From Heliocidaris tuberculata (lineage: Eukaryota > Echinodermata > Echinoidea > Camarodonta > Echinometridae): a DNA stretch of 64,000 nucleotides. The stretch spans positions 9,249,429 through 9,313,428 of the forward strand of contig CM046833.1 in the NCBI GenBank assembly GCA_025618425.1, written 5' to 3'. The position numbers were made by a program, and so were the translations under genes. The notes under the pieces were generated by a model. That model saw only the letters and a program-made list of their open reading frames with translations, did no database searches and had not been told where the DNA came from. How positions within the stretch are numbered: position 1 is the first letter of the stretch; each line of letters starts with the position of its first letter. Positions 1,813-44,390 of the stretch are shown in pieces.

Positions 1813-2152
1813 GGACTTGAGCAGATGAGTACAAAATAAGAAAGTTTCACAAACATTCCCGAAGTACTTATCTGAAAGTCGCACACTTCGCCCAGATATG
1901 CTACTATGAACATACATCATTTTCATTTTTTCAGAAAGAGGCAGCCAGATGTTTGAAGATTTTGTTCACCAAGATAAAGAGCGTTGAACCCATGTGGACC
2001 GCTGTCGTCCTCATGGAGGTCAAAAGGATAGGCCAGGCCCACAAGGAATGCCTGGCCGTGTACAAGCCTAACATTGAGAAGCTTAAGCAGTGCCAGGAGA
2101 CGGGGGTCCCAGGCCTGGTCCAGGGCCTGATTGATTTCCTAGAAGGCAGAAG
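447..2152 (+). CDS. Exons 1-3 of the Death-TIR gene: ARM/HEAT-like helical repeats
   Basis: The exons are 447-592, 1306-1515 and 1935-2152, with phase 0 between the first two junctions and phase 2 after the third. They encode amphipathic helices such as LSRIDRIAALLEDMG, CFMALANISLKHAEHFVKHI and EAARCLKILFTKIKSV, with the leucine spacing of ARM/HEAT repeats. In SARM1 an N-terminal ARM array holds the TIR domain inactive, so an autoinhibitory or sensing role is possible here but is only analogy. Repeat boundaries cannot be fixed by eye. An unrelated helical solenoid is the main alternative. Confidence 0.6.
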
Positions 2153-8100: not shown

Positions 8101-10416
8101 TCCCAGACGTAAATAATCATATCTGATTGATACACGTCTGTAAAAACCCAATTACACACACACATATCGTTCAGGAAGCTCAGATGGATGAGAACATTGT
8201 TCAAAGAAAAGTTAAAAAAAAACAAAACAAGAGCTGTATATTGGGGCAAAAGTGTTCACTGATCTTGTAGAAAATATATTGATAATGATTATTCACTCCT
8301 AAGACTATATTGATTAATTTCCCTTTTTCATAAATTGTCCCTTGAACAGAGGGGTCAAATACCGCATTGTGTGTACAATGTTACATTGCCGCAGCCTGCA
8401 GATCTTGTGCCTCTTACTCTTCATACGTCACTTGGGGGTGTGACGTCAATTAGCCAATCAGCTCACGAGTTTTAAGGAACGGTCCCAAAACCTCTACTTT
8501 TCCCCCTTTTTCGCCAAAACGAGACATAATTTTGACAATCAATTGCCAGATTCGTGATTTGAAAGCAAAAATACATGGAAACAGCACCTTTTTTCTCTCT
8601 AATTTAGTCACCCTTTAAGATTCTACACCTCTTTCCTCCTTTGAGTCCATGCCGCTTCCATTTTTACTGCTGACTTTATCGTTTTCTTTTCAATTCAGGA
8701 GTCTTCAGAGCCCCCGTCCGTATTCATTTCATATCAGTGGGGCAAGCAGCCCGAGATCAAAAGACTGTTCTCACGTCTCACTGGTTTGGGCTTCCACTGC
8801 TGGCTGGATATCAATCAGATGGGTGGTGGGGATCCACTCTACTCTAAGATTGATAAAGGAGTTCGACATGCCAAGGTACGACATGGGTTTTCAACAATCT
8901 TGTCAAAAAGACTTTTAGATTGTATAATATATAGATTGACTTTTCGTTCAATTAGTTTTCAAGTTCATGTAATATATTTGTGGAAGGGGAGTGGGAAGAG
9001 GATGAGCAGGTGTTAGCAGGAGGATAAAACATCCTTTTGCCCCGAAAACTCCTGATTCATCGCTTCTAAAGTGATCCACATGGAAATGTGGAATCAAGTT
9101 TGTTTAAAGAAATATTAGCTCCAAAGAATCCACATTATTTTGCAGCACTTGATAAATCCATAAAGGGCCCATATAGCTACTTTTCTACAGAGCTTAACAA
9201 TTAATCATCCAACAAGATTAAAGCGATCAGGAATATTCAGTGAACAATTTAGAATGCAAAATGAACAGCATTTCGTCATTAGAAATAGTTTGAAATGACT
9301 TGAACACAAATATATGCTTTGACATGGCTATCAGGTCGTCATTTCATGTGTGACCCCAAAGTACGCCCTCTCCGCCAACTGTAGACGGGAGGTCAGCCTG
9401 TCGGACGCGCTCCGCAAACCCATCATCCCCCTGTTGCTTGAAGAAATGACGTGGCCGCCAGAAGGACCAATGAGCATGACCTTTACTCAGCTACTATACA
9501 TTGACTTTACCAAGGAGACCACTCAAGCAAGCTTCGAGGATGAAAAGTTCGATGAACTCGTTGAGAAGATTGGTAAGCATGCACAGCCGATGAGCGAAGG
9601 TGTACCTGCTGCGGAAGGGACGAGCGATGGAAAGTTGCGAACAACTACGCCCAAACGAGAAGGAACATCAGCGAATAGTGATAATCAAAAATCAACATCT
9701 TCTGGTGATGTAAGAGAAGGTAATAATGTCGTATCAGCAAAGGTGCTTTCATCAAACATGTACTTTTTTGGTCAACGGGGACAGATCACCCATAAATAAG
9801 TTAATTTATGTACAGCTAGTACGTACAAAATCACCCCCCCCCCCCTCGGAAAACAACAACAAGAAGCAAACAAACACTTTCCCCGGTATTCTACGGGTTG
9901 ACGTTAAAGCACTATGAACAAAGGATAACATAAACACTCCGGGAACATTTTAGAGATTTTTGTACGAAAACACAATATTATTAGGGCTTCTACTTTCATT
10001 AGATTTCTAAACGGATATAAAGCTCTTCAAAAACCACTGGGACATTACTTAGGGACAAAACATGACGGATGTGGGTGTGTAAATAATTTGCTTATAAGAT
10101 TCCGAAACTAAATTGAAAAAGTAGTAAAGTGTATTTTTAACAGCTTTAAAGGACAGCACACAATATGTAATTTATCTTGACATAGTAAGACAGTTATGTT
10201 TTAGATGTATCATGATGATTCATAAAAATTTTTTGGTCAGTCGCTTCCGCTGAAACACGATTTGTTTTTGTTTTTCTTTATATCATATTCTTATGTCAAA
10301 TTTCAGGGAAACATGCATCTCCAGTCGGCGACGATGTCCAGTCTAGAGATAGCAACTCTTCGCGGCCTCCGTCCGGGAAAAGGAACAAAAAATCTTCGGC
10401 ATGTTTGCTTCTTTGA
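447..10416 (+). CDS. ARM/HEAT-like, coiled-coil, Death, TIR-TIR, CaaX signalling protein (5' partial)
   Basis: Eleven exons join in frame with GT-AG borders: 447-592, 1306-1515, 1935-2152, 2418-2634, 3484-3757, 4095-4357, 4932-5163, 5678-5781, 8699-8875, 9335-9719 and 10307-10416. The sum is 2336 bases, giving 777 residues after one split codon. The first exon starts in phase 1, so the N-terminus lies upstream or was not found. Visible order: helical repeats (residues 1-190), acidic coiled coil (about 195-263), Death domain (about 268-352), TIR (about 365-505), TIR (about 560-690), Ser/Lys-rich tail, and C-terminal CLLL at 774-777. Death domains recruit partners by homotypic contact. TIR domains either scaffold Toll-type signalling or, in the SARM1 class, cleave NAD+. 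MyD88 has Death plus one TIR and SARM1 has ARM, SAM, SAM and TIR, so this order matches neither. Domain calls are from motifs read by eye; function is inference. Confidence 0.82.
666..850. mobile_element. MITE with ACACGATAAAAACT ends (copy 1)
   Basis: The 185-bp element starts ACACGATAAAAACTACTTTC and ends with the inverse. It is flanked by a direct 6-bp CCTCTA (660-665 and 851-856). A second copy lies at 36401-36584. It sits in the first visible intron of the Death-TIR gene. Confidence 0.85.
1717..1809. repeat. (GA)n microsatellite
   Basis: GA-rich simple repeat, purest at 1777-1809, in an intron. Apparent Ser/Leu reading frames on the opposite strand are repeat artefacts. Confidence 0.95.
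2418..2634 (+). CDS. Exon 4 of the Death-TIR gene: acidic coiled coil
   Basis: One exon encodes about 72 residues with heptad spacing of I, V and L among D, E, Q and N. It repeats a theme of the kind DIDNLDTRVTTTENDVSRID, followed by three more similar segments. This is typical of a parallel oligomerising coiled coil. The acceptor ending at 2417 was chosen over the one at 2410 because only the later one keeps phase 2 with exon 3; the earlier one gives an immediate stop. Oligomerisation would suit a receptor-proximal adaptor that clusters its Death and TIR domains. Confidence 0.8.
2753..2996. mobile_element. G-rich hAT-like MITE remnant
   Basis: It begins CACTAGCGTACC followed by a G-run and ends with CGCCACTGG. 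Internal text (TGCCCCCTGTCATCTTTTAC, CTTGTCAGAGAATTATGGAGG) recurs at 52710-52850 and inverted at 48240-48320, so it is a dispersed family. It lies in the intron between coiled coil and Death exons. Confidence 0.6.
3484..3757 (+). CDS. Exon 5 of the Death-TIR gene: Death domain
   Basis: The exon encodes 91 residues and contains a full six-helix Death domain signature. Visible hallmarks are DWRFLAVRLGYSGEDI (helices 2-3), MAILAEWYTTH (helix 4-5 Trp) and VLSALEDMGRTDAAEII (the family L-x-x-M-G-R-x-D motif before the last helix). Length is normal for the family. It sits directly before the first TIR, as in MyD88. It begins in phase 0 after the cag ending at 3483 and leaves one base for the next exon. 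Confidence 0.85.
4095..5163 (+). CDS. Exons 6-7 of the Death-TIR gene: first TIR domain
   Basis: Exons 4095-4357 and 4932-5163 encode a complete TIR. Visible motifs are TVFLSYQWDHQPEVKAIKKH (strand A and box 1), GFPCWMDIGQMGGGD (strand B and BB loop), KVVLCMVTEKY (strand C), NCNKE followed by VNLANLLNKPIIPI, and the QWPPEG turn. The E that ends exon 6 occupies the position of the catalytic Glu of SARM1-type TIR NADases, and the WP turn also occurs in SARM1. The acceptor ending at 4094 is preferred because it keeps phase 1 with exon 5; the one ending at 4111 breaks the frame. Enzyme activity is inferred only. Confidence 0.88.
5471..5620. repeat. Inverted-repeat MITE with telomere-like core
   Basis: The left arm reads ATTTTGGCGCTAATGTGCTT and the right arm is its degenerate inverse ending near 5617. 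The centre (about 5529-5560) reads GGTTAGGGTAGGGTAACCC and then its inverse, resembling head-to-head TTAGGG units, but it is too short to be a telomere relic with confidence. Confidence 0.6.
5678..5781 (+). CDS. Exon 8 of the Death-TIR gene: linker between TIR domains
   Basis: This short charged exon encodes 34 full codons starting YRNWIPQVEDTPVTVK. It follows the acceptor ctacag ending at 5677 and ends at a GTAAGG donor. Phases match on both sides (1 in, 0 out), which supports it as a real linker. No domain is recognised. The next coding exon is 2.9 kb away. Confidence 0.72.
6305..6640. mobile_element. Penelope-like inverted repeat with hammerhead-like cores
   Basis: Two arms of about 115 bp are inverted copies. 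The left begins AATATTATAAACAAGTCAAC; the right ends with its inverse. Each arm carries the sequence family GCTTGCGACGTTTCACGTCC ... TTCATCAGGC, a style of terminus known from Penelope-like elements. The right arm on the plus strand has CTGATGA at 6561-6567, a 6-bp stem GCGTCC/GGATGT with loop CGGAGT, and GAAA at 6587-6590, matching a hammerhead ribozyme core. The left arm has the same on the minus strand (6354-6383). No reverse transcriptase is present. Confidence 0.6.
7068..7176 (+). pseudogene. THAP zinc-finger start, frameshifted
   Basis: The ATG at 7068 opens MPNRCIVAGCSKTPKDDVSL, which has the first two zinc-binding cysteines (C-x4-C) of a THAP domain. A short insertion around 7128-7131 shifts the frame. 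The next frame continues HHFPKDENLRKLWP, the conserved THAP helix region, and then stops. The later Cys and His ligands are missing. THAP domains are DNA-binding modules of P-element-type transposases and of many host proteins; here the context indicates a dead transposase start. Confidence 0.75.
7984..8160 (+). mobile_element. SINE-like element with 7SL/tRNA-like promoter boxes
   Basis: The head reads GGCGTTGTGGCGTGCGCCTG followed by TAATCCAGCTA and later GGTTCGAGACTG, resembling the Alu domain of 7SL RNA and including A- and B-box-like stretches. The body contains CTTTCGGATGGTGACGTTAA, a motif common in invertebrate SINE tails. It ends in an ACAC run. It is inserted in the THAP remnant. Confidence 0.5.
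8699..9719 (+). CDS. Exons 9-10 of the Death-TIR gene: second TIR domain and basic tail
   Basis: Exons 8699-8875 and 9335-9719 encode a second TIR closely similar to the first: SVFISYQWGKQPEIKRL, FHCWLDINQMGGGDPLY, VVISCVTPKYALSANC, RREVSLSDALRKPIIPL and TWPPEGPMSM. The Glu in CRRE (visible residue 632) aligns with the SARM1-type catalytic position. The intron lies after HAK, whereas the first TIR is split after NKE, so intron positions differ between the copies. After the TIR the exon runs into a Ser/Thr/Lys-rich disordered tail. The donor is taken at 9720 because that phase yields the CaaX exon. Confidence 0.86.
10307..10416 (+). CDS. Exon 11 of the Death-TIR gene: polybasic CaaX terminus
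   Basis: Following the acceptor tttcag and read in phase 1, this exon encodes 35 residues ending GKRNKKSSACLLL and then tga (10414-10416). C-L-L-L is a canonical CaaX box. Leucine at the last position favours geranylgeranyl transfer, and the upstream K/R cluster is the usual second membrane signal. The alternative phase-0 donor (GTAAGA at 9710) would instead give a longer frame without such a terminus. The CaaX reading is preferred because the motif is complete at the exact C-terminus. Confidence 0.7.
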
Positions 10417-19487: not shown

Positions 19488-19539
19488 CAGTGAAAACGCA
19501 GTATAAAGAGGTCTGACCCTGATAGCAGACTGACATCTT

Positions 19540-22500
19540 AAAGACGTCTTAAACTGGTCAAAACTCGTCCAACTCGTCATACGTCGTAAACATGACATCT
19601 TTACGATGTCTTAATGACGTCTTGTTAAAAGATGATTTTTGTAGCCAAAAAAATGACAATAATATGACGTGAATAAGACGTCTTGAAGACGTCGATAAGA
19701 CGTCTTAAAGACGCCTATATTAAGACCACTTTTGTCATTATTTTTTACAAAATTACGACATTTTAAAGACAATTTTAAGACGACTGTAAGACCACTAAAA
19801 TACTATTTAAAGACATCTTTAAGACGTCTTTAAGACGTCTTTAAGACGTTTATAAGACGTCTATAAGACGACTATATTAAGACCACTTTTGTCATTTTTT
19901 AAAACCAAAATACAACATATTTAAGACGTATCTAAGACGTCTAGAAGACCGCTAAAATACATTTTAAAGACATCTTCAAGACGTCTTTAAGACATCTATA
20001 AGACGTTAATAAGACGTCTATAAGACGCTTATAATAAGACCACTTTTGTCATTTTTCTTTACCAAAATACAATATCTTTAAGACGTATTTAAGACGTCTA
20101 GAAGACCACTAAAATACATTTTAAAGACATCTTTAAGACGTCTTTAAGACGACTACAATACGTTGATAAGACGTCTATAAGACGCCTATATTAAGACCAC
20201 TTTATCATTTTTTTAAAACCAAAATACGACATCTTTAAGACGTAATTCAGACGTCTATAAGACCGCTAAAATACATTTAAAAAACATCTTTTAAGACGTC
20301 TACAAAACGTTTATAAGATGTCTATAAGACGCCTATATTAAGACCACTTATTTCATTATTTTTACAAAAATACGATATCTTTAAGACGTATTTAAGACAT
20401 CCAGAAGACCACTAAAATGCATTTTAAAGACATCTTTAAGACATCTTTAAGACGTCTACAAGATGTCAGTAAGGCGTCTATAAGACGCATATATCAAGAC
20501 TACTTTGTCAATTTTTTTCCCAAAATACGACATCTTTAAGACGTATTTATGACGTTTATAAGACCGCTAAAATACATTTAAAAGACATCTTCAAGAGGTC
20601 TACAAGACCACTTTTTTCCCATTTTTTTGTCCAAAATATGACGTCTTTAAGACGTAATTAAGACGTCTATAAGACCGTTTAAATACATTTTAAAGACATC
20701 TTTTAAGACGTCTACAAAACGTTTATAAGACGTCTATAAGATGCCTATATTAAGACCACTTTTGTCATTATTTTTTTTCCAAAATACGATCTTTAAGGTG
20801 TATTTAAGACGTCCAGAAGACCACTAAAATACATTTTAAAGACATCTTTAAGACGTCTATACGACCGTTTAAATACATTTTAAAGACATCTTTTAAGACG
20901 TCTACAAAACGTTTATTAGACGTCTATATGACGCCTATATTAAGACCACTTTTGTCATTATTTTTTCCAGAATACGACATCTTTAAGACGTATTTATGAC
21001 GTTTATAAGACCACTAAAATACATCTTCAAGACATCTTTAAGATGTCTACAAGACCATTTTCCCCCATTTTTAATCAAAATACGACGTCTTTATGACGTC
21101 TATAAGATCCAACTTTTTGATATTTTTTCCCAAAATACCACATAATTAAAACGTCAATATAGATTTGCCATTTTCTTTTTCATTGTTCTTTAGGTCTAGA
21201 TCTAGAAGACCACTAAAATGAATTTAAAAGACATTTTTAAGACGTCTTTAAGACGTGTACAAGATGTCAGTAAGGCGTCTATCAGACGCATATATTAAGA
21301 CTACTTTGTCATTTTTTTTCCCCAAAATACGACATCTTTAAGACGTATTTATGATGTTTATAAGACCGCTAAAATACATTTAAAAGACATCTTCAAGAGG
21401 TCTACAAGACCACTTTTTTCCATTTTTGTCCAAAATATGACGTCTTTAAGACGTAATTAAGACGTCTATAAGACCGTTTAAATACATTTCAAAGACATCT
21501 TTTAAGACGTCTACAAAACGTTTATAAGACGTCTATAAGATATTAAGACCACTTTTGTCATTATTTTTTACCAAAATACGATATCTTTAAGGTGTATTTA
21601 AGACGTCTAGAAGACCACTAAAATACATTTTAAAGACATCTTTAAGACGTTGATAAGATGTCTGATACGACCGTTTAAATACATTTTAAAGACATCTTTT
21701 AAGATGTCTACAAAACGTTTATAAGACGTCTATAAGACGCCTATATTAAGACCACTTTAGTCATTATTTTTTTTCCAAAATACGACTTCTTTAAGACGTC
21801 TTTAAGACGTTTATACCGACCACTGAAATACATTTTCAAGACATCTTTAAGATGTCTATACAAGACCATTTTTTCCCATTTTTGATCAAAATACGACGTC
21901 TTTAAGACGTCTATAAAGATCCAACTTTTTGATATTTTTTTCCAAAATACCACATAATTAAAACGTCGATATATAGTTTTGCCATTCTTTTCTTTTTCAT
22001 TGTTCTTTAGGTCTAGATGTCCGTAGTATACTAGTAGTAGTAAATCATGTCACTGTGTGAAGCGTTTATTTTCGTAACAAAATTTATGACAGCAAAATAT
22101 GACGTCTATCACTGGCGTACACATGCATTGGGGCAGAACTTGCCCCCCCCCCCTCCTCAAAAAAGAAGAAAAAAAAAAAGTTCCACGACCAAGGAAAAAG
22201 AATTCAGGGGAAAAATTAAGAAATTAAGAAAAGGAAAAGGAAAGGGAAAGGTTAAAATATGAAATCATTTTCTGGATATTGTGGAAAAATCTATCACAAA
22301 ATTAAATTTTCATTTTAAGAAGGTCAAAATTTTCGCTCTCTCGCGTGCTCGGTGTTCTGCCCCCTCAAAATCAATTAAGTTGGGTCATTACGCCACTGGT
22401 CTTTATTATATCTTTAAGATGTCTTCAGGTCGTACTTTTTTCTCAGTTTGGACCAATATAAATGCGACATCGCGAAGACGTCTTAAAGACGCCTTTACAA

Positions 22501-22575
22501 AAGCCCCTTTTATTGGCAATTCCCCGTCCAAAATACGATATCTTTAAGACGTCTTATGTACGGTCACTTTTTTTG
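19540..22575. repeat. Left GACGTC array of the giant element
   Basis: About 3 kb of higher-order tandem units. Each holds several AAGACGTCTTTAAGACGTC-like palindromic blocks, then TATTAAGACCACTTTTGTCA and a T-run. Units are imperfect, roughly 150-250 bp long. A hAT-like MITE (22110-22398) interrupts the inner end. Confidence 0.9.
22110..22398. mobile_element. hAT-like MITE remnant inside the array
   Basis: Ends CACTGGCGTAC and TTACGCCACTG enclose a C-run, A-rich tract and non-coding DNA. The target duplication is not clear. Confidence 0.6.
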
Positions 22576-24474
22576 TTTTGTTCAAAAAGAGTGACGTCAA
22601 ATATACATGAATTATATTACTTTTCTATCTTTAGTAATTTACTCCCTCCTCATTTCGTTTTTAACGCTTAAATTAAATTTAAAAATAATAAACGATTATT
22701 ATTAATCATTGCACGGTATTTTAAAGCGCTATCATGTCAAAACAAAAAGAAAAGTTTGAAATGTGTGCATTGCTATGATCGAGCACAAATCATATATGCT
22801 GAGCAAGCAGAAATCATATTGCAGCTAGCTAGCTTGCATGTAAACGGTACGCGTTCGGCGCGGCCGCTGCCAGCGCAGCCTAGCCTGAATTAACGTGCAG
22901 CGCATATATGCATTTCACGCATAATGCACGTGTCTGATTCCGACTACACTGACTAGCCGAGGCCTGCCTAAGAAAATTTTACTTTACTTTTACTTTAGAG
23001 ATCAGTATTCCCATTGAATTTATACAATTACCGGTACTCGGTCTACATCAACCTGTACTGAATTTGCATACCGTACCGTTTGTCTTTGTGGTAAGTATAA
23101 AAATATTTCTTTAATTTTTAATTCTAACAACATACCTAACGTTAACTTAACGGTCGACGGTTGACATGGTTGACGGTTAAAAAACTTGAGCTGAGTGGCA
23201 TGAGTGGCTATGCCTATGGCCTTTTGTAACGGAAACCTGGTTAACCATGTTAACGGTTAGACTATTACAAAGTTAACGTTAGAGAGTTAGACCTGCTACG
23301 AAAGTAGTCACAGTGTCAGTGATCAACAATTGAAAGAGATTTTTTTTTAAATATCATCTGACTTTAGTAATAAAGCAAGCCAAAGTACGTTAATGTTAAT
23401 GAAAACTAACGGCTTAATTGCCATGATTGTAGAATACCCTACCATTTTCTGGCTAGACTACATGCATATATGACATGTTATGTATGAATGCATCGTTCTT
23501 TAAATGTGTTGTCTACTCTGTTATGGTAGGGTATTCTGCGATTGTTCCAAACTGTTTAGACCTAACTGTTACTATCTTGTTACTAATGTTAGTAATTGTT
23601 AGCTGAAAAGTGAAACTGAAAGTTGACTAAAGTAGAGTAAGACCCTACCGATGTACGGCTACGGCCTACGACTTGAGTACGAAGTACGAAATCTGAAAAT
23701 CGCCTAACATAATAAGGGCCTGTGCATTGATTTGATTAACTAATCGCATTAAGGTCCAAAATATGTCCCTTCTCTTTATAACCCATTTTCTCCGTTGTTT
23801 TGTACATGACCTTGAAAGACTAGCGTATTTCAAAGGGTAATTTATAAGCATTCAGACTGTCCTTTAGGCAAGCTATATACACTGTATCATTTAAAGCTTA
23901 GAATCCCTTCTTTTAGGTGCTGTAAAAAAACAAGAAACCTAAATTTCTGAATTATTTGTGGTATTGAGCCGGCGAGTCACATTTCTAGTAAACTAAGAAT
24001 ATACCAAGCGTGAAATATCAACAACTTATTGTACAATATGTTGTTTTTGTTTGTTTGTTTTTTTTTTTTGTCACTGAAGCATTGCTTATTGCATCATTTC
24101 ACAGAAGTTTTCTCCTCAAAACATTACAGAGAATCCCCAATTAAATGTTGTTTAATTTAAAACTTGCAGTTACAGTTGAACTCTGCAAAAATGATACACT
24201 ACCCCTAAACTTTAATTCCACCTGGGGATGGAGGAGGGAGGCTCCATCAATCACTTTTGATAAACTGACAAAAAATTCTGTATGCAGTATGCTCCATTGA
24301 GGTTCCCAGTAGTTGTACATGTACATCCACTGTCTTACTAATGAGAGCCAAAGACTTGAAAAAGAAATACATAAAAATTGATACAACATAAAAACTGACA
24401 TGAAGGAGGATAGAAGTTTAACAAATAATAGAAACCCTATGAATTACAGAAATTTTAATGGATTTTATTTTCAG
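22576..24474. other. 5' region of the DUF4806 gene
   Basis: A GC-rich patch (22846-22880, GCGCGGCCGCTGCCAGCGC) and a strong donor GTG|GTAAGT at 23089-23094 suggest a promoter and a non-coding first exon. No coding exon with the required phase was identified. A small MITE lies at 23431-23537. Confidence 0.35.
23431..23537. mobile_element. 107-bp MITE
   Basis: Terminal inverted repeat AGAATACCCTACCAT with its inverse at 23523-23537. GATTGT lies next to both ends, at a 2-base offset on the right, as a possible target duplication. Confidence 0.7.
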
Positions 24475-27400
24475 AACTCAAGTGCCTGTGTATTAAGGTT
24501 GAGGCGTTGAAGGAAGAAGTGAAAGCAAATTCAAAGGTTCTTCGACATGTTCTCCATATCATCACGCAAGGGAGAGAGGAGGAGGAGGTCGAGCCAAACG
24601 ACATGCCCTCTCTGCCTCTTAATCATGTGGAGGAGATGACCGCACTAAATGATGCTTTGAAGGATGCGTCAAAGAGAAAGTATTTTGTAAGCAAAAAATG
24701 TGTTAATGTTGAATTGAAGTAGTGAAAGAAACTTGACCTCCTGTTCATGTTACGTGTAGTTGTCAAAAGTAGAAGTGAAGATTTATTTTATTCTAAGTCT
24801 TAGTTTAATACAATTCGATTATGCCATTGGCAAGCATAATTCAAGTATGCTGCTTGTTACCCTTAAAGTTAACAAAAGAAGAAATAAAAAATTACTTAAT
24901 TCCATAAATGATTGATTATATAGCAATTTAAAGATTTTTTTTTTTAAGTGCAGGAAGACAAGTGCTAGAATATTTTTCCATGTTAAACTCGGAACATATT
25001 CATTAACCATATTGATGGCAACAATAATGTATTTATGATTTCTATATCAATTCAAAAAATACATTAGAATGATATATTGTAAAGCAAGCAGTTTTCAGGC
25101 TCAGCAAAAAATGTTTTCCTCCAATTTTTTTTTTTTTCATAGATATTTGTGTGCCATTTGGGAACAGTATTTGGAAATTCACCCCTTGCTGTGATGTTTT
25201 TCAGGAATGATAAACAAGAGTAATGCCATTGAGGATTTTCTAAAACTGATCAGTTCATATACTTGATTGCTTGTGCATCTAAATTTTGAAGGTGATGCAT
25301 GAAAAGGCAAGTAATAGCACAGATTTTATTGCATACTCCAGATGTCCATGATGAGTAAAGTAGGAGGAGGAACAGTGGTGGAAGCTGTGAATCGACAGTT
25401 GCAGACCTTGATGGAAATCAGGCTTGCCAACAAGTACAACTGGAAAGGTCAGCGAGGTGACAAGGTCAAATTCTGCATGCTGAAAGGAGTGATTGGTGTA
25501 ATATTTGGTAAATATAAAGCATTTTATTTGGATAAAATATAAATTTAAAAAGCAGTTGCATTTTAAAAACTATTCCTGAGTCAGGGGAATCTTTACAAAT
25601 TACGTGTAGGGTAATTAGGAATCAGTCTGGAGCACTTGTAAAATTTGTATAACTGTGCAACGGTTTGCCAATTCGAATCAGAAATTGGATGGTAGATTCC
25701 CTGTTGGGACCTTCATGAGACAAAGCCCTACATAGACCGAATGGGGGTGCCTTGCATGATGCTTAAGCACTGTCCTTATGAGAGAATCGGGTGAGGTGCC
25801 TCACCCGACACGATTACAACTAAGCCGAAGTCAGAAATTAGAAAATAGCAGCCTAAATACTGAAAATGATGTATTCAATACAGTGGGCATACCAGCTTTT
25901 TTCAAATTTCTGACATTTGGTTGAAATTTTTATGTAAATACAAGGTAGTGTATGGCTCATCAGTTTGCTTCCTCGGTGAGTGCGAGCGCTAGAATGTGTG
26001 TTGTGCACCGACATGTACAGTGCGCATGTACATGGCTTGCGCTTGCATTTGCTGAGGAAGTATATCAGCGAGCCATACACTGCCATATTTTACTTGAAAA
26101 TGTTACCCAAATCTTGGAAATTTCAAAAAGCTGGTAACCCAGCTGTTTTTATAAGATATCATTTTCAGTATTTAGGCTGTTATTTTCCAATTCCTGACTT
26201 TAGTTTAGCCGTAATCATATCGGATGAGGCACCTCACCCAATTCTCCCATAGGGATAGTGATTAAGCATCGTGCAAGCCACCCCTCGTACGGTGCCTGTG
26301 GGAGACCTCTGTCTGCATAGGACAAGAATCTTAAAAGTCAGAAAATGTTATTTCTCCTCCAAACAGACAGATTTCTCTGTTTAAGATCACAGATGTCTTT
26401 GTGTTTGTGAAAATTGTTTGTTTTCATACTCTAAATTTATCCCAATATTTTTCTCATAATTAAAAGTGATATATTTCTGATCTGGCAAGGAAGAATGCAT
26501 TAACTTGACTTCGCATGGTCAAGGATTTATCTAGTTTTTCAAACTTCGGGCAACATTTGGGAAGAAATTGAAATTGTAAGAATCCCTTAACTGTTGACCC
26601 CATGACTTCTTGATACCGACTGACTTTACAACAGCAACTGACCGTAATTTTAAAGCCAAACTCCAGTAATCACAGTAGGTTCAGACATAGATTAAACATG
26701 CCAAACGTTTTGAAATAACGAAATCTAATTGCAAATCCAGCATGGTGAAAATTGTAGGCTCGCGAATTGGTCATAATCAGTTATACCTCGGAGAAAAGAC
26801 CCGTCTAATTAGAGAAATCCTTGCTTATAAAGTAATTACTGATCAATTACTCATTATCTACCAGAATCATTTGACACATAATAAGCTTCATTTGGATTTC
26901 GCTCAACTTCATTTGGATTACACAAAATAGGAAGAATTCTTAATTTTTTAGATAGATCAACCACTGAACGATTAATCCATGCTTTTGTTATGTGCCACTT
27001 TGATTTCTGTAATAGTTTGCTTTCTGGTCTCCCTTCTCAAATTCAAAGACTACAACTCCTTCAAAATTCTGCAGCCCGACTTGCTACACGTACGAAGAAA
27101 CATGAATCAATAACCCCAGTCTTACGAGATTTGATAAATTATATTTATGAACCCAGTGCATCTTTTCATTTCTTTTCCTCTCTTCCTTACTAAGTGCATA
27201 GAGACATGCAATTATGCTTATGTGTTATGCGCTATATAAGAATGTTTAATTATTATTATTATTATTATATACATATATGTATATATACTGTTGGAATGCT
27301 GTACAAACAGTTAAAATGTAGTCGGGTTGCAGTTAGAAACTTAGAATACACTTTGAATGCCATTCATTATTTCTTTACTCTGAATGCACTTCAAAAGTTT

Positions 27401-27690
27401 TGTAAATAAGCAAGACTTACCACAGAATTTCATTCCAACAGCATTCTTGCTGATCCTGTCTCTAGTGTGACTAGAGTTTTAAGTTATCTATTTTTTCAAC
27501 AGATGCTGTACGAAGTAATCCTGGATTACACGACACAAAATTAAAGGATGAAGAAGAGGCTATGAAGCGATATTTAAGATATGCATATCAGCGCTTACCA
27601 AAGCCACTCCCGGGACCCTGGAATTTGCAACCAGCACCAGGATCACCTGAAGAGATGATTGTTGAGGAAGCTGAAGCTGAATCCAATTGA
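24475..27690 (+). CDS. DUF4806-domain protein (start not resolved)
   Basis: Three exons join in frame: 24475-24686, 25342-25507 and 27503-27690 (stop tga). The first opens in phase 1, so an upstream exon or an internal start is needed; the first in-frame ATG is at 24602. The protein begins with a basic coiled segment (KVEALKEEVKANSKVLRHVL) and then the DUF4806 pattern: LPLNHVEEMTALNDALKD, MMSKVGGGTVVEAVNRQL, RLANKYNWKGQRGDK, and a final helix DEEEAMKRYLRYAYQRLPKP. DUF4806 has no known biochemical role and occurs in multicopy animal gene families, some tied to transposons. It is the only coding unit recognised in the 15-kb element, so an accessory or DNA-binding role in transposition is a guess. 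Poly(A) signals AATAAA follow at about 27965 and 27995. Confidence 0.78.
25737..26305. repeat. Foldback (long inverted repeat) in a DUF4806 intron
   Basis: Two arms of about 250 bp are inverted. The left includes GGGTGAGGTGCCTCACCCGA and AATAGCAGCCTAAATACTGA; the right includes the inverse AGTATTTAGGCTGTTATTTT and GAGGCACCTCACCC. This would form a large hairpin in the transcript. Confidence 0.8.
26930..27270 (+). mobile_element. CR1/L2-type LINE 3' fragment
   Basis: The plus-strand frame FLDRSTTERLIHAF and then FCNSLLSGLPSQIQRLQLLQ, NSAARLATRTKKHESITPVL is the C-terminal reverse transcriptase region of CR1/L2 elements. It ends at a stop in 27191-27193. The tail GCGCTATATAAGAATGTTTA followed by ATT repeats is the usual 3' end of such elements. 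Confidence 0.85.
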
Positions 27691-28062
27691 TCAGGACAGC
27701 CGAGTGCTTTAGTTATGTATATGTTTTCTTTTTTTATGCCTCCACCCACTGAAGGTGTGTGCCGAAGGCGTTATTTATTTATTTATTATTTTTTTTTTTT
27801 ACTTCTCTTGTTTCTGTTCATGTACTTTTTTTTTTACCGGAATTGTCACATGATGTTATCTTTTATTTTTGATGTGTTATTGCACTGCTGTTCATAAAGT
27901 TGGAATGAAATTGTTGGCATGTGTACATGTACATCTATTTATGAAATTATTATGAAGGGTTCACAATAAATGAATGTACACATCCTCAGATTTCAATAAA
28001 CTAAACTGAATAAGTATTGTCTCGCATGAATCCTAAAGCATGTATTATTACATGTATGCGTA

Positions 28063-29066
28063 TAAAGCCCCTTTCACAATTGGTCTGCGACCGTTTGCGA
28101 CCATTTGATCGCACGACAGGCTGCAACAGGCTTCAATCGCCACCGATCTCATCAGGTCGCAGAAAGGCATTCACAAATGCAACAGCGGTCGTAAAACAAA
28201 AGCGACTAGAAGAGACCGTTGCACGAGTAAGTCGCATTTGCTCGCATATGCTCGTGCGAGTGGTCTTCCGTTCACATGCGAGAGTTGCAGGAGTGATTGC
28301 GAGTGGCTTGACGCCAATCACAATAGTCGCACGATCGATTGCATGGTCGTGCGAGTGGATGTGAGACCATGCGATCGCTTGTGCGATTGAATGAGACCGG
28401 TGCAAGTGGTCGTGAGAGTATTCGTGCGAGTGGCGTGGGGTATAAAAACCCCCTCGACAATTGACCAGTAGTCAGTTTCAAGTTGGCCTTCTTAATAGTC
28501 AAGATGCCAAAGAAGAAAGTTAAAAAGAAGAGAAAGTTGTTAGAGGAGGGCCCTGTTGCAGAGGATCATCTCCATAGTCCCCCTATATATACCCCCGAGG
28601 AATAGTCGCATACAGTCTCATACAGTCGTGCAACGGTAGTACAACGTTGTAAGATGTGCTGCGATCGGTCGTACAACAGTCTCATGGTCTTAGCACAATC
28701 ACACCCATTCGCAAGACTGGTCGCTATAGGTCGCTAGCGCACGTGCGAGTGTTGCACGACCTCCAGCCCACCCACTGCGACTATTGAGTCGTGCGAACTC
28801 TCGCATCTAATCGTGCAACGTTGTGCAACACTCATACGAGAATCGTACGACCTAATGCGAGTGAATCGATCGCATCTGGTCGTGTCTGGATTTTGTGCAT
28901 GTTCAAAGTTCAGATGTGACCAGTCACGACCGCCTCAGGTTCATGCGACCGCCTGCAACGACTGCGAGTGGTCGCAAGACACCAAGCGATCGGTCGTGCA
29001 ACACCCCGAAAAATCTGTTGCAGGCGGTCGCAAACTGGTCGCAGACCAATTGTGAAAGGGGCTTTA
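28063..29066. mobile_element. 1-kb DNA transposon with retained promoter and N-terminal ORF
   Basis: Terminal inverted repeat TAAAGCCCCTTTCACAATTG, with the inverse ending at 29066. The interior is crowded with TCGCA/TGCGA and GTGCGAG blocks on both strands. A TATA box (28441-28446) precedes a tiny ORF at 28504. Flanks do not fix the superfamily; Harbinger or piggyBac types are possible. Confidence 0.85.
28504..28605 (+). CDS. 33-residue basic ORF inside the MITE
   Basis: The ATG at 28504 opens MPKKKVKKKRKLLEEG, and the frame ends at tag 28603-28605. The first eleven residues form a strong nuclear localisation signal. It lies 60 bases downstream of a TATAAAAA box, the layout of a real promoter and start. 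The likeliest reading is the first codons of the parent transposase or its partner, cut off by internal deletion. Expression of such a peptide is not shown. Confidence 0.4.
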   Translation: MPKKKVKKKRKLLEEGPVAEDHLHSPPIYTPEE

Positions 29067-32000
29067 AGCAACCATGGCACTTTAATTACTCTGCATTGGT
29101 AATTACTCTTAATTCCTTACAAAACGGTACTTCTTAGATGTCATCAACTCTGTTTCAAACCAGGGACTTCTTAGTTATTGGGCTATTTCTGTACATCTGA
29201 ATCATGGACGTACCCAGTCGAGTACTTAAAGCTGGAAAAATGAATAAATGGTATTGTAATAATCGATTCATAGAGCACTCTGAGGTAAAAAAAAATAAAA
29301 AGAATTATTCCAACATTATGAGCAACAGTATACAATGATGTTGAAGGCTATATGATTGACGTTGATGGTTGTGCTATAAACCCCTCTGTAAAATATTCTA
29401 GTACAGTCCAGGTGCTGCGTGTGTAATAAGGGTTTCGCTATTTTACAATATTCCTTTGTGAATGAAGTGCCTGTAGCATTGGTGAGGATGGTGAAAATGA
29501 TTTTCCAGTATAAGTCTTGACATTATCAGTTAACTGATGGCCTACACTAAAACTTTCAGCGTAAATTTTTTACCTCAATAAGTAAACAAATATTCAACAA
29601 AAAGTTAGGGAAAATGACAACATATTTTCTTAATTTTCTGTTGCTGCCAAAGATATTTTCATTTGAACCAAGCCAATTCTATTGCAATTATGAAGTTTTA
29701 CAATGGTGCTTCCATTCCCAACACTTTCTTTGTTGGAAGTCTTTGCCAATTTATTAGTGATATGTATCTCATTTTTCTGCAGCTCATTTGTATTTATAGC
29801 TATACTTTTATTTAAACTGTTTGCACCGTATCAAACTGTATGTCAATGTATATGTGATACATGTATTTGCTATAGAATATTCATTTTATGAGCATGATAT
29901 ACAAATATTGATTGCAACTTTTAGGGGCACAGTTAAAGGCAGTCAATCAGTGGTGTTTGCATGTTTCTGGGCTGACTCAAGAAAACTTTGTCCATGGTCA
30001 AGGCTGGAGTTGCATGAAGGAGACCTAGCACTAGCTTTGTGATCTTTGTGGCATAATAGCTGGTACGCCACAAAGATAACCTAGCTAGTGCTAGCATGAT
30101 GTGTTCACTCAATAGTAGGCACAACATTAACTCCAGGCTGAACAGCCATGCCACTGCGGCCGCCGGGCCACTTGCCTGGTCTGGCAAGAGTATGACACAA
30201 GGTCTGTTAGCTGCATAGTGTGTAAGGTACCATCACAGCCATACACAATGATCTATGTCAGGGAGTAGAGCATTTTGCTGAGTGCTGACCCTCGATATAC
30301 TTTCAAATTGACCTAGATTCGTATACTGTACAAAAAGGTGTTCATTGCACCAGCAAACACAGATTTTACTCCAGATTTCCTTTGAAACTATGGTACAAGG
30401 TTATCTAGCATCTGTACTGCGCCCATCAATTTTTAGTTGTGTTTTTTTTTTAGATGGAAAGAAGAACATGCAAGTGGAGGTCTATTTTTTAACATACTAT
30501 TGTTGTTGTTGAGTAGAAATTTGGTGGTCAAAATATCAAGTCAAATAGCTACATGTAGCTGACTTCATCACCTGTCGACAAAACAATGGTTGACAATGTT
30601 GTATTCATGATATAGCTGTGCATCCACCAATATCTTCCCATGTTAAACACACTTTTATTGTTACTATACTGTGGTGGATAGTCACCCCAGAATAGACAAA
30701 GCAGCATGAATAATCAACACAAACTAGTGATCAATAGAAATAACTTTGTGTTACTTTCTTACAGAAAAAAAAAATTATTAATTATCATTGACCTTTAGCA
30801 AAATCAGGAAGGTGCAAATGTTATGCAGCACTCAACCTGTATAGATTAGCCTTGTCTTGGGTAATCAATACAACAGCACTATACTTTTGATTACGATTAT
30901 ATTCCATTCCTAACATTTCTGATTGTTTTGATGGAAAAATTTTGCACTCACTGTTGATCTTTATGGCTTTCTTTTAAGTTTTAAACAACTCATAATTCTT
31001 TTTGTGCGAAGCTAATTAGTTATACTGAATCAAATATGTATGATATACATAAGATAATAACTGTTCCCTTTGTAGCTGAAAAATATATCATAGCCCAAAA
31101 TACAACAAAATAAAGGCTGACATACATGTATTTTTATGATCAGTGCTGCCAGATATATTTTTGTCTTTCATTGTACCCCCCCCCCCCCCCACTTTTAGAG
31201 GGGGAATCTTCGACATTTACTGTTGATATTGTGTTTTGCATACATGTTGTCATATACTGTTATAAACTTGTATTTTTGGTGTTATTTAATAACTGATAGC
31301 ACACACTGTTGCAGCTGATGAATTTCATAACTCAAAAGTGAATATCTTGCCTATAATACAGTTGTATACCCTATCTTAGCCATTCTGGGGATAGCTTCAA
31401 GATTTGAATTTGACTTTTTTTTTTTTGGTACATGTATCACTGCTTTAGTCAGATCAAGCTCAGAAAAGAGTCAGAAGATGTATGCTTCATGTATATTGGA
31501 TAGTCAGTCAAAGAGATTTTGAACTGGAAATCATAATTGCGCATTGTCATTTAAACATGACTCAAGTCCAGCTTTACTCTTTGTGAAACAGTTCCTGGGA
31601 TGTTTTCTTTTTTAATCACTTGTTTATACTTTTATTTACTTGTACATGTATCTAATTTCAACAGTAATAGTAGTAGTAGTAGTAGTTATTTGAAATGTAT
31701 GAAGTATGAGTAGAAATTGATTTTGTATGTTACAAGTTGTGCCATTTGATCAGTGTTGTAAATAGAAAAAAAGTCAGGGAGAAAGGTTTTTTTTTATAAT
31801 CCTTTCATATTGAAAGCTCATGATATTTTTATGTACATAAACATGTATTTATCTCTAAGCACTATCCAAAAATGATGTGCCAAAAATCTTTCCAAATTGA
31901 GATGTTATGCAATACCCGTTCCTTGTGATCAGAAACACAAGTTCCTTTTCTAGCCTGAGCTGAGGACATGACGGTGAGATTGATTTTGCTCTATCTTGAG

Positions 32001-33359
32001 TTCAGGTCAATTGTGGGGTTCAAATACAGAACAAAATTGCAAATGCAAAGAAATTGTACTAAAGGTCGCATGGGAAAATCCTATCCATAACAGAAATATG
32101 AGACCACACACTGGTTTTGTTTTTTTATGCCAAAACAGGCACCCACCTTTTTGCTGGGTGCCATAGGCAATATGTTTTGGAGTTGGAGTTTGGAGTTATC
32201 CGTCCATCTATCCATCTGTCTCGCTTTTAGAAATGAAACGTGTGCCAAACTCATTACCATGATCCAGGCCGTCTTGTGAGATTGTGAGTAAAAATAATGA
32301 AAGATGCACAAGACCCGACGTAGCTGTATATACCACATATTCTTCTCCGAGCTTTCGGCTAAATATTAAGCCTTTTTCAACGATCTACAACAAAATATAA
32401 GAAACAAACTTAATGGCAAGCGTAAATGAACTGAAAGGAACTTAGGAAAAACAAAAATAAAATGTACAAACTAATATAAGCAAAATAAGGTAATATAGTA
32501 AAAATTATTACCTGCAGTAGTGGTTCTGTGGTTCTTGCTCATGTACGTGTGTTGAATCACATGATATGGTCCGTCACACGAGCTCAGTTCCGTAACATGA
32601 TTAGGGTTGGAAAGGAATATGGGTTAATTTTGATTTTGCTTTATCAACGGGGAGATTCACTTACGTGAATTTAAGTTACTATTTTTGTTTTCATATATCT
32701 TTTTGCTTTGAAAGGATGCAAAATATAAGATGTACATGTATGGACAAATCATGGGGGTTTTTTTATTTAAAAAAAAGGAAAATTTTATTAGATGTTCACC
32801 ACGTACATATATTGTAACCGTAATACATTAAGGTTACCAGCAAAGCTTTGTTTTACTGTAGGAATTATCGAAGCAACTTCTTGTATTTCTTGATACATGT
32901 ATATTTAATATGTGCATGCTGCCAACATGGGTATTTGTTTTCATATTTATTATGTATACTTATTAAAGGTTGAAGTATAAAACTAATGCCAGCTTGATGT
33001 TGCTCTTGCATGTAATTCGTATACTCTGTGTTATTGTTTGATTGCAGGCCTGGATCCAGGAAATGGGAAATACAGATGTTGCCTGTGTGGGGAGTAATGC
33101 CTTCACCTCCCATTGGATCCGGGCCTTGAGTGTATGGTTACTCAGCATCTGTTCAGTGTGCTTGCACGAAGAAGTCGGAAATGACAATGCAAGAAAAAAA
33201 AAACACATCTACTGTATTCTGAATCCGCTAACAAGTCTCGAATCATCAAACGTCTATGATTTGGTATCTCTGATGTCTTCTTTGTTGTTACAATGTCTTC
33301 AGGATGTACAAAAGACACTTTTTTATTCCTCTGCTCACATCGTGTAAGTGCCAGAGGCA
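29067..33359. other. Non-coding interior of the giant element
   Basis: AT-rich DNA with no supported gene. It contains a C-run at 31177-31191, a short (TAG)n tract near 31668-31688, and at 32336-32390 the text GAGCTTTCGGCTAAATATTA ... CCTTTTTCAACG, reminiscent of Penelope-like termini. Confidence 0.6.
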
Positions 33360-34550
33360 TTACCAAATATGATCAAGGATATGACGACTTAAGGATTAAC
33401 CTGTCTAAAGGACATCGTAAAGACGTCCAAATGACGTCTTATTTAGGTACTACACATGCAAAGGATGCTAAATGATGTCTTATTTTTATAATAAGCATGT
33501 CTAAGAGATATCCTGAAGGCATCCAAATTACGTCTTATTTTGTGTAATAAATACGTCTCGGAGACATCCTGAAGACATCCAGAAGACGTCTTGTTTTGAT
33601 AAACACGTCTAAGAGACATCCTGAAGACATCAAAATGACGTCTTATTTTGATAATAAACACGTCTCAGAGATGTCCTGAAGACATCCAAATGACATCTTA
33701 TTTTGATAATAAACACGTCTAATAAAAATCCTGAAGACATCAAAATGACGTCTTATTTTGATAATAAACATGTCTAAGAGACATCCTGAAGACATCTAAA
33801 TGACGTCTTATTTTGATAATAAACATGTCTTAGAGATATCCTGAAGACATCCAAATGACGTCTTATTTTGATAATAAACACGTCTCAGAGATATCCTGAA
33901 AACATCCAAATGACATCTTATTTTGATAAGAAACATGTCTTAGAGATATCCTGAAGACATCCAAATGACGTCTTATTTTGATAATAAACATGTCTTAGAG
34001 ATATCCTGAAGACATCCAAATGACGTCTTATTTTGATAATAAACATGTCTTAGAGATATCCTGAAGACATCAAAATGACGTTTTATTTTGATAATAAACA
34101 TGTCTTGCAGATATCCTGAAGACATCCAAATGACGTCTTATTTTGATAATAAACACGTCTCAGAGATATCCTGAAGACATCTAAATGACGTCTTATTTTT
34201 GATAATAAACACGTCTAAAAGACATCCTGAAGACATCTAAATGACGTCTTATTTTGATAATAAACATGTCTCAGAGACATCCTGAAGACATCCAAATGAC
34301 GTCTTATTTTGATAATAAACACGTCTATGAGACGTCATAAAGACATCCATATGACGTTTGTCGGGTAAAAATAACACGTCTAAACGACGTCATATGGACG
34401 TCTTTTTTTATCAATAAGACGTAATAATGATATCAAAATACGATGTCTTTAAGACGTCAAACGTGGGTGCAAACTGATGACTTTTTGACGTCTTTACCTG
34501 ACATCATTAAGACGTATAGCTTTTCGTCTTTAAGACGTCCTTAAGACGTC
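33360..34550. repeat. Right GACGTC array of the giant element
   Basis: About 17 imperfect units of roughly 55-57 bp with the theme AAATGACGTCTTATTTTGAT, AATAAACATGTCTTAGAGAT and ATCCTGAAGACATCC. The outermost 150 bp switch to AAGACGTC blocks like the left array and then the terminal repeat. The unit differs from the left array, but both are built on GACGTC. Confidence 0.9.
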
Positions 34551-34806
34551 AGTCTGCTATCAGGGGATATTCCTAATAATGTGTTATAACAAGGTAATAT
34601 TCCGGTCCCAACTCTTTATATTCTATTGTTTTTTTAGCCTGATATAGCACGATTCCTGCTATAACAAGGTAATATATATTGAGGGTCCCACGGACCTCGT
34701 TATACTAAGTTTCCACTGTATCATTGATGAAGGATGGGTTCGATCACACCTCCTTCCGGCTCTTGCAGAACACCAACCGCTGTTTCACAGGAAGAGGGAG
34801 TTTTCG

Positions 34807-41852: not shown

Positions 41853-44390
41853 GATGTAAACAGAACAGTGGTTTTCAATTTTAAAAATTTGAAAGAAACT
41901 TTAAAGCTCAGTAGTCGCTAGTGAGTCCAGCGTTCCCTTGCTTTTTTCACATGGGTCAAATGCATGAGAACTCTGGGTACAAAATTGAAAAGGAAATCTA
42001 CCGCTCGTTCGTTTTACTTCTTCGCATTTACAAGTTGTTTATGAAACTTTGGCTACTAGTGACAGGTCAAGTGCATTATAAAATCATTTCTATTTACTGC
42101 CATATTGCTGATTTCAAAGCGGAAATAAGTTTGGGTTGTATTTTAGTCTATACGTTTTGTAGGCAAAGGCTTTGAGATAAGCCACCGCTTACAAAAACCG
42201 CAATTGCCCATTTTCTGGCCATGGGCAGAATGTTGCAGGAGAGAAAGAATTCCATAAGTCACCTCTGAACCTTAATCTCAGTAGTCTCTAGTTATGGTTT
42301 GGTCAGTTTGTAGGTCTTAGGAAGTAACATGCTCTTGGTCTCAGGCATCATTATATCAGGATCCTTGCACCCAGCATCATGGACAGCTCCATTCTTAGGA
42401 ATCTTTAGAGTTTCCACCCTCTTTGTCTGGTCCACTTTTAAAGGGTTTTTGAGTACCCCCCTTTTTTTTGAGGGAGGGGGGGGGGGGGCTTGCGGACTTG
42501 TTAAATTACTTTTCTTGCCTCTTCCTCCTTTTGGTTTTTTGTATAATCGACTGGATGATACATAAGAAGGGGAAGGATCTTAATCACTGATTAATGATCG
42601 TATTGATATAATTTATGTGAAGGTTTCCCTTTCCCACTTAGACTGCCTCAAAGTTGGGATAATAAGATGATTTGTGTGAAAGCAGAAAAATAAGGGGGGG
42701 GGGGAGGGATGGTGAAAGTTTCGAGCATGCTCCAAAGATCTCACCCCGACAATTTCTGTAGCCCGACCCCAAGCCGAAGAGAGACCGACAACCCCGATAA
42801 CAGACCGACATAAAACTGACGGCAAACCGACCCCCGCCGACATTACCCCAAATGGCATAGTTTCTGTCGGTTTGAGGTCGGTCTTTTGGTGTGACTGCAG
42901 TGCACACCCATGACTATGTCCATCTTGCGTGGTTCTGAACGTAACCAGCTCGACTTGCCATGACCACTAGATGTCGCTATATCACTTTCTTTCAAAGAGA
43001 GCCGAAGAAAAACCAAACGAATAAAACAAAAGCATTTTCCAATGTTACTTTCACCACATGTCTCTTTAAAAGGGCCCATGCCAAGCAAATGCATGTTCAC
43101 TTTTGTTGATTTATGATGTAAACAGAACAGTGGTTTTCAATTTTAAAAATTTGAAAGAAACTTTAAAGCTCAGTAGTCGCTAGTGAGTCCAGCGTTCCCT
43201 TGCTTTTTTCACATGGGTCAAATGCATGAGAACTCTGGGTACAAAATTGAAAAGGAAATCTACCGCTCGTTCGTTTTACTTCTTCGCATTTACAAGTTGT
43301 TAATGAAACTTTGGCTACTAGTGACAGGTCAAGTGCATCACAAAATCATTTCTATTTACTGCCATATTGCTGATTTCAAAGCGGAAATAAGTTTGGGTTG
43401 TATTTTAGTCTATACGTTTTGTAGGCAAAGGCTTTGAGATAAGCCACCGCTTACAAAAACCGCAATTGCCCAATTTCTGGCCATGGGCAGAATGTTGCAG
43501 GAGAGAAAGAAAGAGATCCCGGAAATTCCATAAGTCACCTCTGAACCTTAATCTCAGTAGTCTCTAGTTATGGTTTGGTCAGTTTGTAGGTCTTAGGAAG
43601 TAACATGCTCTTGGTCTCAGGCATCATTATATCAGGATCCTTGCACCCAGCATCATGGACAGCTCCATTCTTAGGAATCTTTAGAGTTTCCACCCTCTTT
43701 GTCTGGTCCACTTTTAAAGGGTTTTTGAGTACCCCCCTTTTTTTTGAGGGAGGGGGGGGGGGGGCTTGCGGACTTGTTAAATTACTTTTCTTGCCTCTTC
43801 CTCCTTTTGGTTTTTTGTATAATCGACTGGATGATACATAAGAAGGGGAAGGATCTTAATCACTGATTAATGATCGTATTGATATAATTTATGTGAAGGT
43901 TTCCCTTTCCCACTTAGACTGCCTCAAAGTTGGGATAATAAGATGATTTGTGTGAAAGCAGAAAAATAAGGGGGGGGGGGAGGGATGGTGAAAGTTTCGA
44001 GCATGCTCCAAAGATCTCACCCCGACAATTTCTGTAGCCCGACCCCAAGCCGAAGAGAGACCGACAACCCCGATAACAGACCGACATAAAACTGACGGCA
44101 AACCGACCCCCGCCGACATTACCCCAAATGGCATAGTTTCTGTCGGTTTGAGGTCGGTCTTTTGGTGTGACTGCAGTGCACACCCATGACTATGTCCATC
44201 TTGCGTGGTTCTGAACGTAACCAGCTCGACTTGCCATGACCACTAGATGTCGCTATATCACTTTCTTTCAAAGAGAGCCGAAGAAAAACCAAACGAATAA
44301 AACAAAAGCATTTTCCAATGTTACTTTCACCACATGTCTCTTTAAAAGGGCCCATGCCAAGCAAATGCATGTTCACTTTTGTTGATTTAT
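41853..44390. repeat. 1.26-kb near-identical tandem duplication
   Basis: Unit 1 (41853-43114) and unit 2 (43115-44390) begin GATGTAAACAGAACAGTGGT and end GTTCACTTTTGTTGATTTAT. They differ by a few substitutions and a 14-base insertion in unit 2 near 43508-43521. Duplicate open frames inside each unit are non-coding by every sign available. Confidence 0.95.

Follow-up and report, generated by a model that had tools for sequence, protein, structure and literature searches.

The 64,000-nucleotide stretch of the Heliocidaris tuberculata genome analysed here (the window; C2:9249429-9313428 in an assembly of 897 Mb and 69 contigs) carries a 15-kb unit at 19517-34565 that is real and mobile. It belongs to a family, here called family A, with a canonical length of ~14.75 kb, inverted ends, subterminal arrays of the palindrome GACGTC, and a spliced DUF4806 gene between the arrays. 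Family A is probably a giant, recently active, non-autonomous transposon of the animal TRC (Transposon Related to CACTA) branch of CACTA/EnSpm, mobilised in trans. A sequence-only reading of the window had proposed one coherent unit, either a giant DNA element of a new class or the non-autonomous partner of one. Its coherence was confirmed by 28 inward-facing pairs of ends and by related empty sites lacking the whole unit, and the role of a non-autonomous partner is supported.

Ends, copies and empty sites of the mobile unit

The 18-bp end CCCTGATAGCAGACTGAC occurs once in the window, at 19517 on the plus strand, and its complement once, at 34548-34565, in agreement with the matching inverted ends reported earlier. 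The inverted match extends further, to 37 bp (35/37 positions, 94.6% identity, with the outer 18 bp perfect). Exact-end search and inverted alignment thus gave a left terminal inverted repeat at 19517-19553 (+) and a right one at 34529-34565 (-); the ends contain a 13-bp core, CCCTGATAGCAGA. A matching GA dinucleotide lies immediately outside each end (19515-19516 and 34566-34567), and the related empty site, a pogo-like paralogue in locus L032, identifies the two copies as a 2-bp target duplication. The element splits a pogo-like repeat, as the sequence-only reading had noted: the repeat's own 29-bp inverted ends, 86% alike, are found one on each side.

An exact search of the assembly detected the 18-mer 46 times in forward and 42 times in reverse orientation, with no match for a reversed-pattern control. 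Pairing from the match table, along the lines proposed in the earlier note, yielded 28 inward-facing exact pairs: 22 with ends 14.2-16.4 kb apart, five at 21.9-25.0 kb and one at 53.3 kb. The remaining 32 ends had no exact 18-mer partner. All 28 pairs were inspected at their ends. An identical 2-bp flank was present in 26 of them, and in each of these 26 the longest exact duplication was 2 bp. Two copies, at C10:27212629 and C10:27768640, have mirror-image flanks 0.56 Mb apart, a pattern suggestive of an inverted segmental duplication with the transposon inside it; when they are counted as one insertion, the 2-bp duplication is present at 25 of 27 independent sites. The duplicated dinucleotides were mixed (AA in six pairs, TA in five, AT in four, TT and GA in two each, and seven others once each), indicating that there is no fixed target.

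Related empty sites were found for three of the 27 flank pairs in a search space consisting of the window and loci L004-L032. For the copy at C18:22275187, the two flanks put together aligned without gaps to window positions 28311-28428 (118 bp, 98.3% identity) and had AT once; a second paralogue is present in L031. For the window copy, the counterpart was the pogo-like paralogue in L032, which has GA once and is 76.7% identical across 90 alignment columns. For another copy, C9, a repeat close by in the right flank of that copy served as counterpart, with TA once and 85.5% identity across 62 columns. Each site lacked the whole unit, and loss of only a part of it, which would have spoken against the earlier proposal, was not seen in the sites examined.

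Six copies (C9, C19, C13, C6b, C1 and C7a) were 99.70-99.88% identical in pairwise comparison over ~14.73 kb with gap columns left out; with gaps counted, five of them were 99.4% identical to C7a. Family A therefore moved recently. A longer copy, C12long, was 99.5% identical to these six young copies outside its own insertions, and the window copy 98.2%. What makes the family unusual is this combination: a DNA transposon of ~15 kb, with no enzyme gene found in it, is present in 28 paired copies, the young ones among them being near-identical.

Three longer copies were taken whole, C7long (21.9 kb), C12long (25.0 kb) and C10_16 (16.0 kb), and the others of 22-53 kb at their ends only. The extra length of the three came mainly from nested insertions. 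C7long is interrupted by 6.6 kb of DNA that has inverted ends of its own. C12long has an 8.2-kb insertion (its longest frame is gag-like by eye), a 410-bp insertion and an enlarged left array. C10_16 carries 413 bp in addition to a nested 1.0-kb element that is also present in the window copy, at 28063-29066, with 30-bp perfect inverted ends (TAAAGCCCCTTTCACAATTGG...), 51% GC and a CpG observed/expected ratio of 1.18. This element lies at the identical place in C7long and C10_16 and is absent from C9. Since these copies are at different loci, the simplest reading is that the carrier kept moving with the nested element aboard, which suggests that such an element can carry additional DNA to new places in a genome. 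The nested element has paralogues elsewhere, one of which was the target of the 15-kb copy at C18:22275187; its window alignment given above lies within the nested element.

Inverted GACGTC arrays and shorter relatives

The left array (19532-22640, +) is ~3.1 kb long and the right array (33395-34528, -) ~1.2 kb, so that the multi-kilobase size claimed earlier for both arrays applies to the left one and not to the right. Their common GACGTC, also claimed, is evident from the counts. Exact copies of it number 41 in 19517-22640 and 20 in 33395-34565, where dinucleotide-matched random sequence would have ~0.5 and ~0.4, and the 10.7 kb between the arrays has none. When one mismatch was allowed, the left array, counted from 19517, had 109 sites with the consensus TAAGACGTCTA, and the spacing between neighbours was a multiple of 11 bp in 76 of 108 cases on the left and 50 of 59 on the right (counted to 34565).

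The unit structures differ, as described earlier. The right array consists of 16.2 copies of a 55-bp unit, which, given its 11-bp multiples, amounts to five 11-bp steps. In the left array the 11-bp unit is contained in longer units, of 108-197 bp among others. The inner half of the terminal inverted repeat already has GACRTC sites 11 bp apart, so the lattice begins in the terminal repeat itself. Orientation is shared as well: CAAAATANGAYRTC occurs ten times in the left array, all on the plus strand, and in the right array 11 times on the minus strand and once on the plus strand (at 34434), with no copy elsewhere in the window and a shuffled expectation of ~0. The same inward pattern was seen in the eight other copies counted. 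The common 11-bp pitch and the inward CAAAATANGAYRTC indicate that the arrays are a matched inverted pair despite their different long units. The CpG observed/expected ratio was 1.67 in the left array and 1.25 in the right array, compared with 0.66 for the sequence that separates them and 0.81 for the window as a whole. Inside the left array, at 22110-22399, there is a small insertion with inverted ends CACTGGCGTA/TTACGCCACTGG (by eye), within a stretch that aligns to C9.

The difference between the repeat units is all that speaks for two unrelated satellites flanking a host gene, or for an assembly artefact. The 28 paired occurrences, the shared oriented motif and the related empty sites refute this explanation, whose probability we regard as practically nil; likewise, the ends were matched and paired in the genome and did not behave as separate satellites.

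Inverted tandem-repeat ends are also the structural hallmark of foldback (Mutator-type) elements such as Tetris of Drosophila, Galileo and the foldback elements of sea urchin, and Galileo's repeats hold extra transposase-binding sites, according to the foldback passages of PMC4079207, which mention no DUF4806 gene. The oriented CAAAATANGAYRTC in both arrays gives family A this hallmark. However, the duplications of Tetris are 8-10 bp long in the same passages, whereas 26 of the 28 family A pairs have duplications of exactly 2 bp. Membership in the foldback group, which is very improbable, is refuted by the duplication length, and the structural likeness stands.

Some copies of the 18-bp end belong to shorter relatives. 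Among eight ends analysed with their loci, three were of family A and five of a second family, family B, which shares the 18-bp end with family A and is 73-76% alike over at most 168 bp before diverging. One exception, L010, has a stretch resembling the other end of family A. Overall, the ends of the two families are 75.7% (left) and 76.9% (right) alike and their middles are unrelated. The other end of family B is CCCTGATAGCAGAGACTGG (in L010 and two more loci); with at most one mismatch it occurs 22 times in forward and 20 times in reverse orientation, with none for the control. A further pattern search, with an incorrect spacer, gave 7 forward and 16 reverse matches against 2 and 5 for its control, and only one additional family B end was taken from it. 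Twelve family B elements followed to both ends measured 576-4118 bp, and a 2-bp duplication was present in seven of ten independent insertions (three segmental copies counted once). Aligned pieces of five family B loci were mostly 85-93% alike, implying that family B is older. An 11-bp distance between exact GACGTC sites accounted for 8 of the 18 spacings in element B9 and 6 of the 18 in L010, and for none of the 13 in B5. From the related ends, the unrelated middles and these spacings, a pair of palindromes 11 bp apart looks ancestral and appears to have been expanded in family A.

Several observations concern single family B loci. One insertion is present in three segmental copies ~61-65 kb apart (L084-L086; C7:13763059-13891237) with the same 14-bp flanks and no 2-bp duplication. 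Just beyond another element (L075; C1:34745440-34755400) are adjacent frames of 528 and 779 amino acids that resemble the gag-pol of a Gypsy-type retrotransposon. A 4.1-kb element at C13:8299299 had an HTH_23 match above the cut-off and a weak DDE_3 match; these were taken to mark a nested Tc1/IS630-type element, and the mobiliser was not seen in them.

Classification and the search for a transposase

The assignment to the TRC branch is based on the CCC ends and the 2-bp duplication, both as reported for animal TRC elements: the passages of PMC1636069 that describe them give CCC as the core and 2 bp as the length of the direct repeat. All 88 exact ends start with CCC, which follows from the construction of the query, and the 2-bp duplication was found in 26 of 28 pairs and at the three related empty sites. 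The terminal repeat of a Tribolium TRC element starts CCCTAGTAGCA and that of family A CCCTGATAGCA, 9 of 11 positions being alike by eye. The same source draws a tandem-repeat region in SmTRC1 and reports TRC transposase relatives from the sea urchin S. purpuratus. On these grounds a new class of such elements is not supported, and subterminal arrays, too, have precedents: a PIF/Harbinger subfamily of Medicago has subterminal tandem repeats (partial account in PMC2213677).

Family A also differs from the TRC elements delimited in those passages of PMC1636069. They are 4.5, 5.2 and 9.2 kb long and each has a TRC (Transposase_21-type) gene, whereas family A is 14.75 kb long, has no transposase that we could find, and carries kilobase arrays and a DUF4806 gene. 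Large size is known from plant CACTA elements, with 8.3 kb for En/Spm and 14.1 kb on average for Rim (same passages). The plant CACTA core is not present in family A, the ends of which read CCCTG, and no TnpA/TnpD-like genes were seen. In plant En/Spm, TnpA binds subterminal repeats at both ends and the duplication is 3 bp.

No Pfam domain was detected at E 0.1 in six frames of window positions 22001-33400, consistent with the earlier statement that no known transposase is seen. When both halves of the young copy C9 were scanned in six frames, only matches below the Pfam cut-offs were obtained. TP6A_N (E = 9e-05, 22.7 bits against a cut-off of 26; 0.089 in another frame; no stretch passing alone), DUF7883 (0.14) and SAM_KIDINS220 (0.076) were rejected as noise, such matches in C9 being partly due to repeats. 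The longest open frame of C9, with the two halves listed apart, was 137 amino acids. The sequence-only reading had looked to longer relatives for a transposase. None was found in C7long, C12long or C10_16, as judged by frame lengths and by eye rather than by Pfam, nor was an autonomous partner of family A found among the copies and ends examined. A genome profile search with PF02992 gave no match, and also none in 14 of 14 control genomes, so it carries no weight. Viral contigs and Rfam gave no matches, and bacterial and archaeal contigs gave three exact 18-mers in 257 Gb, below the ~7 expected by chance. We found no description of such an element in the literature on DUF4806, BEN, foldback elements, subterminal arrays, sea urchin and ISL2EU; Repbase and most subscription journals were outside this coverage, and the element may be catalogued there.

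Other superfamilies were rejected by their hallmarks. For ISL2EU, as defined in part of PMC4482050, the AT duplication was present in only 4 of 26 pairs, and the ends are CCC instead of GG. The TA duplication of Tc1/mariner/pogo was present in only 5 of 26. The 3-bp TWA duplication of PIF/Harbinger was not observed; MtPH-A6-4, the Medicago element of this group, differs by its 3-bp duplication and has no 11-bp GACGTC lattice (partial account in PMC2213677). The duplication of piggyBac is TTAA. Neither this 4-bp duplication nor the CC..GG ends fit, because the longest duplication was 2 bp in 26 of 28 pairs.

The failure of these hallmarks and of the foldback/Mutator duplication length, together with the lack of a visible transposase, might be taken to indicate an undescribed transposase superfamily characterised by CCCTGATAGCAG ends and by duplications that are 2 bp long and free in sequence. 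We consider this unlikely: the TRC description fits both the ends and the duplication, and the TRC transposase relatives of S. purpuratus appear in the same partial account (PMC1636069).

Several points weigh against the TRC assignment itself. The likeness of the terminal repeats is to one Tribolium element over 11 bp, which is thin, and for SmTRC1 the passages cited report the 2-bp repeat from no more than 7 of 14 copies (PMC1636069). No Transposase_21 gene was found with family A ends, and none was seen in the two copies scanned in six frames (window positions 22001-33400 and C9). Two of the 28 pairs lack the 2-bp duplication: C1 has a 7-bp one, and the right end of C2c abuts an assembly gap. 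Three of ten independent family B insertions also lack it (L078, L080 and the L084/85/86 locus). Finally, synapsis by the arrays, taken up below, is a step that we infer by analogy. As for C1, a young copy (C1:20231538; L025/L026), its 7-bp duplication, caagtct, might reflect insertion into a tandem repeat or recombination.

The DUF4806 gene and a possible role for the lattice

The spliced DUF4806 gene postulated earlier was confirmed between the arrays, on the plus strand. Joining three exons by their splice sites gave a PF16064 match with E = 1.9e-06 and 28.5 bits against a cut-off of 25; the domain was invisible in six-frame scans without exon joining. Exon A (24475-24686) encodes a coiled-coil-like stretch and the start of the domain, and exon B (25342-25507), intact in the window copy, encodes the domain core. 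Exon C (27503-27690), identified by splice sites and copy comparison, includes the stop codon. No N-terminal exon with a start codon was seen by eye in 22600-24480. A genome profile search with PF16064 gave no match and missed the known copies as well, a false negative from the split exons. Protein homologue searches gave no matches, and a PDB sequence search gave 15 weak matches with no BEN protein among them. An intron of the gene also contains a 540-bp palindromic hairpin repeat (25744-26284), with outer arms of 132 nucleotides that are 85% complementary.

The description of DUF4806 as cargo holds with one qualification: the most recently spread copies carry the gene in a broken form. The AG/GT splice dinucleotides were kept in all 12 copies compared, and the frame was intact in four (the window copy, C11, C2c and C7long) and broken in eight, including the seven most alike. 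A premature stop in exon B is shared by six of the ten copies of the first set, which are the six most alike; C12long has one stop in exon B, and exon B of C10_16 is shorter by one base. Because recently spread copies carry a nonsense codon, an intact DUF4806 is not needed in cis. No synonymous excess was seen among the eight pairs of gene copies listed (for example, two synonymous and five nonsynonymous changes between the window copy and C9), and these counts are too low to carry much weight.

Poor mobility is generally expected of long non-autonomous elements. In the mechanism that we propose, a transposase encoded elsewhere would cut at the CCC ends and join the element to its target with a 2-bp stagger. 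The 11-bp spacing would put the GACGTC sites on about one face of the helix, and the inward arrays would offer many putative sites to a DNA-binding protein able to draw the far-apart ends to each other. Such synapsis, suggested by analogy with the subterminal repeats of PIF/Harbinger (PMC2213677) and the transposase-binding repeats of Galileo (PMC4079207), both from partial accounts, would let a very long element move, even loaded with nested transposons. The transposase itself could be the protein that binds, as could an accessory protein or the DUF4806 protein; the DUF4806 gene is probably a passenger or a former regulator. The palindrome lattice at both ends thus represents a natural experiment on whether end-binding sites may offset length, and offers a short, defined DNA probe for fishing out the binding protein.

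DUF4806 comes into question as the binder because of its BEN label and the binding preferences of BEN domains, as given in passages of the following sources. DUF4806 is described as a BEN subtype (PMC11075544, citing Pan et al. 2023). BEN domains, such as that of NAC1, bind short palindromes, for example ACATGT and CCAATTGG (PMC7764960), and BANP recognises unmethylated CpG sites in oligomeric form (PMC11472053). A table in the Hydra viridissima genome paper has 69 and 54 for DUF4806 in its first two columns (PMC7642931). Compared with NAC1 and BANP, binding of GACGTC by DUF4806 is only putative and the N-terminal part of its gene was not found.

An alternative is that the element encodes its own accessory factor: as a BEN-type dimer or oligomer, DUF4806 might occupy the GACGTC lattice much as TnpA does the subterminal repeats of En/Spm, and intact copies would supply it in trans to those in which the gene is broken. 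GACGTC is a CpG palindrome, the arrays are richer in CpG than the sequence between them, and the four intact frames and 12 conserved sets of splice dinucleotides would fit this role. The broken gene in eight of 12 copies, the seven most alike included, argues against it, as does the lack of a synonymous excess, with its small counts. Family B, too, has like end sites, yet a search of 14 family B loci failed to detect any of the three DUF4806 exons; among these loci, L008 and L011 hold a partial element (1.5 kb only), as do L005 and L009 (1.5 kb of 2.0 and 2.6 kb). On balance, we think it unlikely that DUF4806 serves as accessory factor. A fuller scenario seems slightly less likely still: that the transposon took up a BEN-type DUF4806 gene and expanded its palindromic site into 11-bp lattices, and that a TRC/CACTA transposase acts on ends marked or synapsed in trans by the BEN protein, which would keep even broken-gene and transposon-loaded copies moving. 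Family A nevertheless gives a testable role for DUF4806.

Three other features of the window lie outside the element. In its left part, one Death-domain frame and two TIR-domain frames were found; the Death-domain exon or exons and TIR-domain exons, with a stretch that is armadillo-like by eye and has no Pfam match, span 1147-9796 (+) and look like a SARM- or NLR-like innate-immunity gene. On the minus strand at 49809-50986 there is a reverse transcriptase match (PF00078, E = 6e-23), and an adjoining frame with no Pfam match reads like its upstream part; by eye, this is a non-LTR retrotransposon remnant. At 41853-44393, a 1.27-kb unit is present in two tandem copies that are 98.6% identical, the result of a recent local duplication.

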